Below are positions 14,621-15,759 of a stretch of DNA of 64,000 bases, in pieces. This DNA is from Clostridiales bacterium. Its GTDB lineage: Bacteria; Bacillota; Clostridia; Saccharofermentanales; Saccharofermentanaceae. Within the stretch, counting starts at the first letter, position 1. The number at the start of each line of letters is the position of its first letter. Made by a program: the position numbers and the translations under genes. Location: positions 120,258 through 184,257 of the forward strand of contig JAFSPU010000008.1 in the NCBI GenBank assembly GCA_017451265.1. The letters are read 5' to 3'. The notes under the pieces are model-generated. The model did not search any database, had not been told where the DNA came from, and saw only the letters and a list, made by a program, of their open reading frames with translations.

Positions 14621-15759
<1,139 letters not shown>

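Follow-up and report, generated by a model that had tools for sequence, protein, structure and literature searches.

Does the in-frame TGA in the tryptophanyl-tRNA synthetase (TrpRS) gene of this clostridial genome act as a programmed readthrough signal, or is it a change without any program in an otherwise intact gene? The gene, trpS, lies in a stretch of 64,000 nucleotides (hereafter the window) of the source assembly G000, which comprises 1.96 Mb in 15 contigs and is 69.5% complete. We conclude, with a probability of about 0.88, that it is an otherwise intact type II trpS, the sole one found, carrying a single private nonsense change, not a programmed one, at a codon where glycine is conserved.

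The trpS frame and its in-frame TGA

Direct reading of the sequence revealed that codon 34 of the trpS frame is TGA (15610-15608, minus strand). The frame starts with an ATG at 15709 and continues behind the TGA for 328 sense codons, up to a TAA at 14623-14621. The features of the locus are as follows:

14621..15709, minus strand: trpS, encoding a tryptophanyl-tRNA synthetase of the TrpRS II type; 362 codons, one of them an internal TGA, and a TAA end (open reading frame, profile and structure match)
15608..15610, minus strand: in-frame TGA, codon 34; all 24 genus relatives and 79 of the 80 wider loci have a Gly codon here (alignment)
15611..15709, minus strand: the 33 codons ahead of the TGA, including the HIGH motif, LHIGH (sequence)
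14621..15586, minus strand: longest ordinary open reading frame behind the TGA, 321 residues from an internal ATG, without HIGH (reading-frame list and profile)
15712..15719, minus strand: ribosome-binding site of trpS, GGAGGAAG, upstream of the start (read from the sequence)

LHIGH and KMSKS, the HIGH and KMSKS motifs of the synthetase, are both in the trpS frame with the TGA between them, so that no single uninterrupted frame holds both. The TIGR00233 profile (cut-off 176.75 bits) matches the frame read through with 237.3 bits, and the portion behind the TGA alone with 194.5 bits. Moreover, over residues 1-362 the read-through product shares 96% identity with those of its two closest relatives, and by sequence comparison the conservation of the frame is far above chance. 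The original prediction of an in-frame TGA between the two motifs, in a frame conserved on both sides and open for 328 codons beyond, is confirmed in these respects. Restart at the internal ATG at 15586 was rejected as a rescue, because the HIGH motif is lost. Given the known role of this motif, the truncated product of 321 residues, which lacks it, should not be an active synthetase.

Further analysis revealed no detectable decay or relaxation of the frame. The dN/dS values of the window trpS against seven relatives are 0.034-0.040, inside the range of 0.020-0.066 found when L004 and L005 are compared with one another and with the remaining relatives; L011 was left out of this reading because of a length shift. 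Compared to three relatives, the window TrpRS has three private residues, the stop included. The low dN/dS and these few private residues place the change at the very tip.

Just 5' of the ribosome-binding site, there is a palindrome, GTCCCCTTATT...AATAAGGGGAC (15759-15731; region 15731-15767), which overlaps an apparent promoter (TTGAAA, 17 nt, TAAAAT). It is recognisable in seven of eight near relatives (L004-L009 and L011; absent from L010), with C-G swapped for T-A in L008 and L011, and is a possible candidate for an operator or attenuator. The ~290 bp from trpS to its upstream neighbor (window 15773-16064) are unalignable to the five relatives compared, and the part of this spacer that was read contains repeated GAAAAAGTATA-like units.

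Codon 34 in relatives and the decoding of UGA

Alignment of the site over related genomes, a check that accompanied the original prediction, revealed a Gly codon and no TGA. Codon 34 is Gly in all 24 same-genus relatives that cover it, a count that leaves out L028 (codon uncovered) and L029-L032 (which belong to the other TrpRS type and have Tyr at this position). A wider scan took in the best 80 of 317 relatives, at least 14 of which (L111-L122, L124 and L125) are records of the genus relatives, as judged by contig coordinates. The position is Gly at 79 of these loci and Glu at one, and at all 80 the first 340 aligned columns are free of internal stops. In addition, a family search flagged a stop inside the gene in 11 other matched genomes, all of which were inspected: four have the stop at query residues 344-354, namely the C-terminal end, and seven have no stop within the alignment. 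The TGA is private to G000 among the relatives examined. As the relatives carry GGN at codon 34, a point change from a Gly codon or a base-call error, which had been offered as the alternative to readthrough, fits best.

The reading put forward in the original prediction was programmed readthrough, in which the near-cognate tRNA-Trp decodes the UGA and the output of TrpRS tracks the level of charged Trp-tRNA. The whole frame is conserved, with purifying selection acting as far as the tip, and no other trpS was found in G000, both as such a device would have it. UGA is moreover a leaky stop at which Trp is inserted. PMC7918605 cites a readthrough of 6% for the catA86-TGA reporter in a prfB+ strain of B. 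subtilis. However, a regulatory device of this kind found no positive support here: the stop is absent from all 24 genus relatives and all 80 wider loci, the site is a near-invariant Gly and never Trp, and TAA and TAG stops occur in other genes of G000. The 73 nt of RNA 3' of the stop fold, as structures free of pseudoknots, no better than shuffled sequences (z -0.12), and in the relative G032 the anticodon stem of tRNA-Trp has the ordinary length of 5 bp. Altogether, programmed readthrough appears highly unlikely.

UGA functions as an ordinary stop in this organism, since all 20 TGA-ending window genes end where their G032 homologues end (41 window-G032 pairs at identity of at least 60%), and ARAGORN found no UCA anticodon in any of the 32 tRNA hits that the partial G000 assembly yields. 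The same two results argue against a reassignment or general suppression of UGA, for instance by loss of RF2 or by a UCA-anticodon tRNA. What speaks for it is that prfB, encoding RF2, has no match over the cut-off in the partial G000 assembly, the single match below the cut-off being RF1 (TIGR00019, 485 bits). Nevertheless, RF2 also lacks a match over the cut-off in G025 and G016, two relatives with partial assemblies and no stop in trpS, and it is present in 73 of the 85 genus genomes. Reassignment is thus largely refuted, and we regard it as extremely unlikely.

The tRNA-Trp gene is not among the tRNA hits of the partial G000 assembly. In G032 it lies in C9:160001-180000, on a contig that matches contig C10 of G000; the match positions suggest that the G000 gene should be located just past the end of C10. 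PMC13092985 describes a tRNA-Trp that reads UGA and whose anticodon stem is short; such a tRNA was rejected as a candidate in view of the 5-bp stem of the G032 tRNA.

For selenocysteine at codon 34 there is nothing beyond the TGA codon itself. The relatives have Gly (in one case Glu) at the site, not Cys; none of five tRNA-Sec hits in the partial G000 assembly is over the gathering score, and no significant RNA fold follows the UGA, which leaves this reading a negligible probability.

Copy number of trpS and stops in other genes

The tRNA-synt_1b family has two matches in G000, trpS and an intact TyrRS, the latter named from its open reading frame. A second trpS, which according to the original prediction must exist in the case of a mutation or an error, was not found in the assembled part of G000, about 30% of the genome being unseen. 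A search of the genus matched TrpRS in 77 of 85 genomes and none in eight. The TrpRS II type is present in 26 of the 77 (G000 included, and G007 as two fragments only), and the other 51 have only a distant type, mostly ~30% identical, with some fragments among them; none of the 77 has both. The genus is divided between two TrpRS types, a split that represents the exchange of an essential enzyme.

These counts bear on the possibility that the window gene is a fixed pseudogene and that a second trpS, in the portion of the genome missing from the assembly, provides the TrpRS. A completeness of 69.5% leaves room for such a gene, but none of the 85 genomes searched (including the eight without a match) has two TrpRS types, and the frame has no decay (dN/dS 0.034-0.040). 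With no second trpS found and no genus genome having both types, a tolerated null is less likely than either an error or a private mutation that leaks, and we consider a fixed pseudogene very unlikely.

We compared 544 kb of G000 (the window and 24 further stretches) with 372 kb of G032 (99% complete). A match at 65% or more was found for 182 G032 open reading frames. For 12 of these the G000 copy was flagged as containing an internal stop, and three of the 12 were judged genuine, namely trpS (TGA), topA (TAA, TAG and TAG) and a GH3 glycosidase gene (TAG). The stops of topA (G000:C10:86025-88160; L093 6052-8160, L207) fall within 12 codons of an alignment that is 93% identical as a whole. One topA copy over the cut-off is present in G000, and the copies of eight relatives have no stop (that of G025 being in two pieces on two contigs). 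The GH3-family gene (G000:C10:76333-77487; L218 16333-17487) has one TAG inside the GH3 domain, private compared to G032.

On closer look, six of the nine other flagged frames appear to be antisense shadows, start differences or 5' extensions, and two were set aside by stop position alone (residues 6 and 23). The remaining one, a G032 frame of 151 residues that matches window 50887-51315 at 71% identity with three stops in the first third, may be a gene or a shadow. A laxer cut also flagged the frame at window 30270-31418, in its first 64 residues. In the reverse comparison, a stop was flagged in the G032 copies of five of 179 G000 frames. Three of the five resemble shadows and a fourth is interrupted at residue 6; the fifth, a GDSL-lipase-like gene, is interrupted at residue 61 in a poorly aligned N-terminal part and is probably not genuine. 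By our judgement, three of 182 genes are broken in G000 compared to none of 179 in G032, a weak contrast that has a probability of ~0.13 by chance and depends on the other flagged genes being judged not genuine.

The stops in topA and the GH3 gene indicate that the damage is specific to neither UGA nor trpS. Both trpS and topA are normally indispensable single-copy genes, and the finding of different stops in two such genes of one assembly favors consensus error or strain mixing over a trpS-specific device. Within the window, no conserved gene other than trpS is clearly broken, so the consensus of this region is not poor overall. Elsewhere in the window, an SRP RNA (RF00169) is located at 21214-21313, directly 5' of a dnaX-like gene, and the start of a spurious open reading frame passes through it.

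The private-change rate of the window is at most slightly raised. At conserved columns, private changes amount to 0.0242 in G000 versus 0.0160 and 0.0209 in its sisters by one count, whereas another choice of columns gives 0.0397 for the window versus 0.0405 for G025 and 0.0289 for G032. Compared with five relatives, the window had a substitution spectrum that showed no clear error signature, with 13 A>C changes compared to 2, 2, 8, 8 and 8 in the relatives, four G>T changes compared to 4-14, and 49 codons with at least two changes compared to 21 and 37 in two sisters. Moreover, no clear depletion of GAAGAG (1.160 per kb in the window, 1.320 in G032) or GGAGAG (0.471 and 0.398, respectively) pointed to a motif-linked base-calling error. 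A scan of codon bias, aimed at genes interrupted by stops, missed even trpS.

Origin of the TGA and comparison with known systems

Directly observed are the stop itself, its absence from every relative examined, a frame that is otherwise intact and the stops in two other genes of G000; we propose the following origin. The TGA is probably absent from the main sequence of the living population. It would then have entered this partial assembly either as an error of the consensus or of the assembly, or from a minority strain. A distinctly less likely origin is a real and very recent point mutation, survivable through the leakiness of UGA to the near-cognate Trp-tRNA. We infer both the choice between error and mutation and the leakiness of UGA in this organism. 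Given the weak contrast with G032 and a private-change rate that is at most slightly raised, a real leaky mutation retains some probability, and ordinary UGA leakiness is the one route we see by which a TGA in a sole trpS could be survivable. Should the UGA be real and strain-specific, with tRNA-Trp reading a few per cent of it, an accidental, newborn and unconserved feedback loop might let TrpRS limit its own synthesis via charged tRNA-Trp, a case that we hold to be very unlikely. If confirmed, it would provide an unusual natural example in which a synthetase relies for its own readthrough on the tRNA that it charges.

Of the original interpretation, the point change or base-call error fits best, whereas the regulatory readthrough is unsupported and a second trpS was not found in the assembled part. 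Among the matches listed in one literature collection, no paper dealt with a bacterial trpS expressed by readthrough. When a single in-frame stop sits in the only copy of a normally essential gene and the assembly is partial, it speaks only weakly for recoding.

A known counterpart of the device first proposed is prfB (RF2), which is autoregulated via an in-frame UGA with a conserved frameshift. The likeness lies in an early in-frame UGA in a translation gene; by contrast, the trpS frame is unshifted and its UGA is not conserved. Among solved structures, the best relative of the trpS product is the Deinococcus TrpRS II (PDB 2a4m and 1yi8; residues 5-344, E 1.4e-112). The Deinococcus enzyme is an extra copy, whereas the gene studied here, with its one internal stop, encodes the sole TrpRS found, and its loop at the stop site is 3 residues longer. 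Deinococcus TrpRS II acts with NO synthase, as stated in PMC9437257. In-frame stops inside conserved prokaryotic genes are the subject of PMC7918605, which counted only stops in at least two genomes because sequencing error is thereby reduced. The trpS TGA resembles these cases in lying inside a gene of low dN/dS but differs in that it is seen in a single genome.
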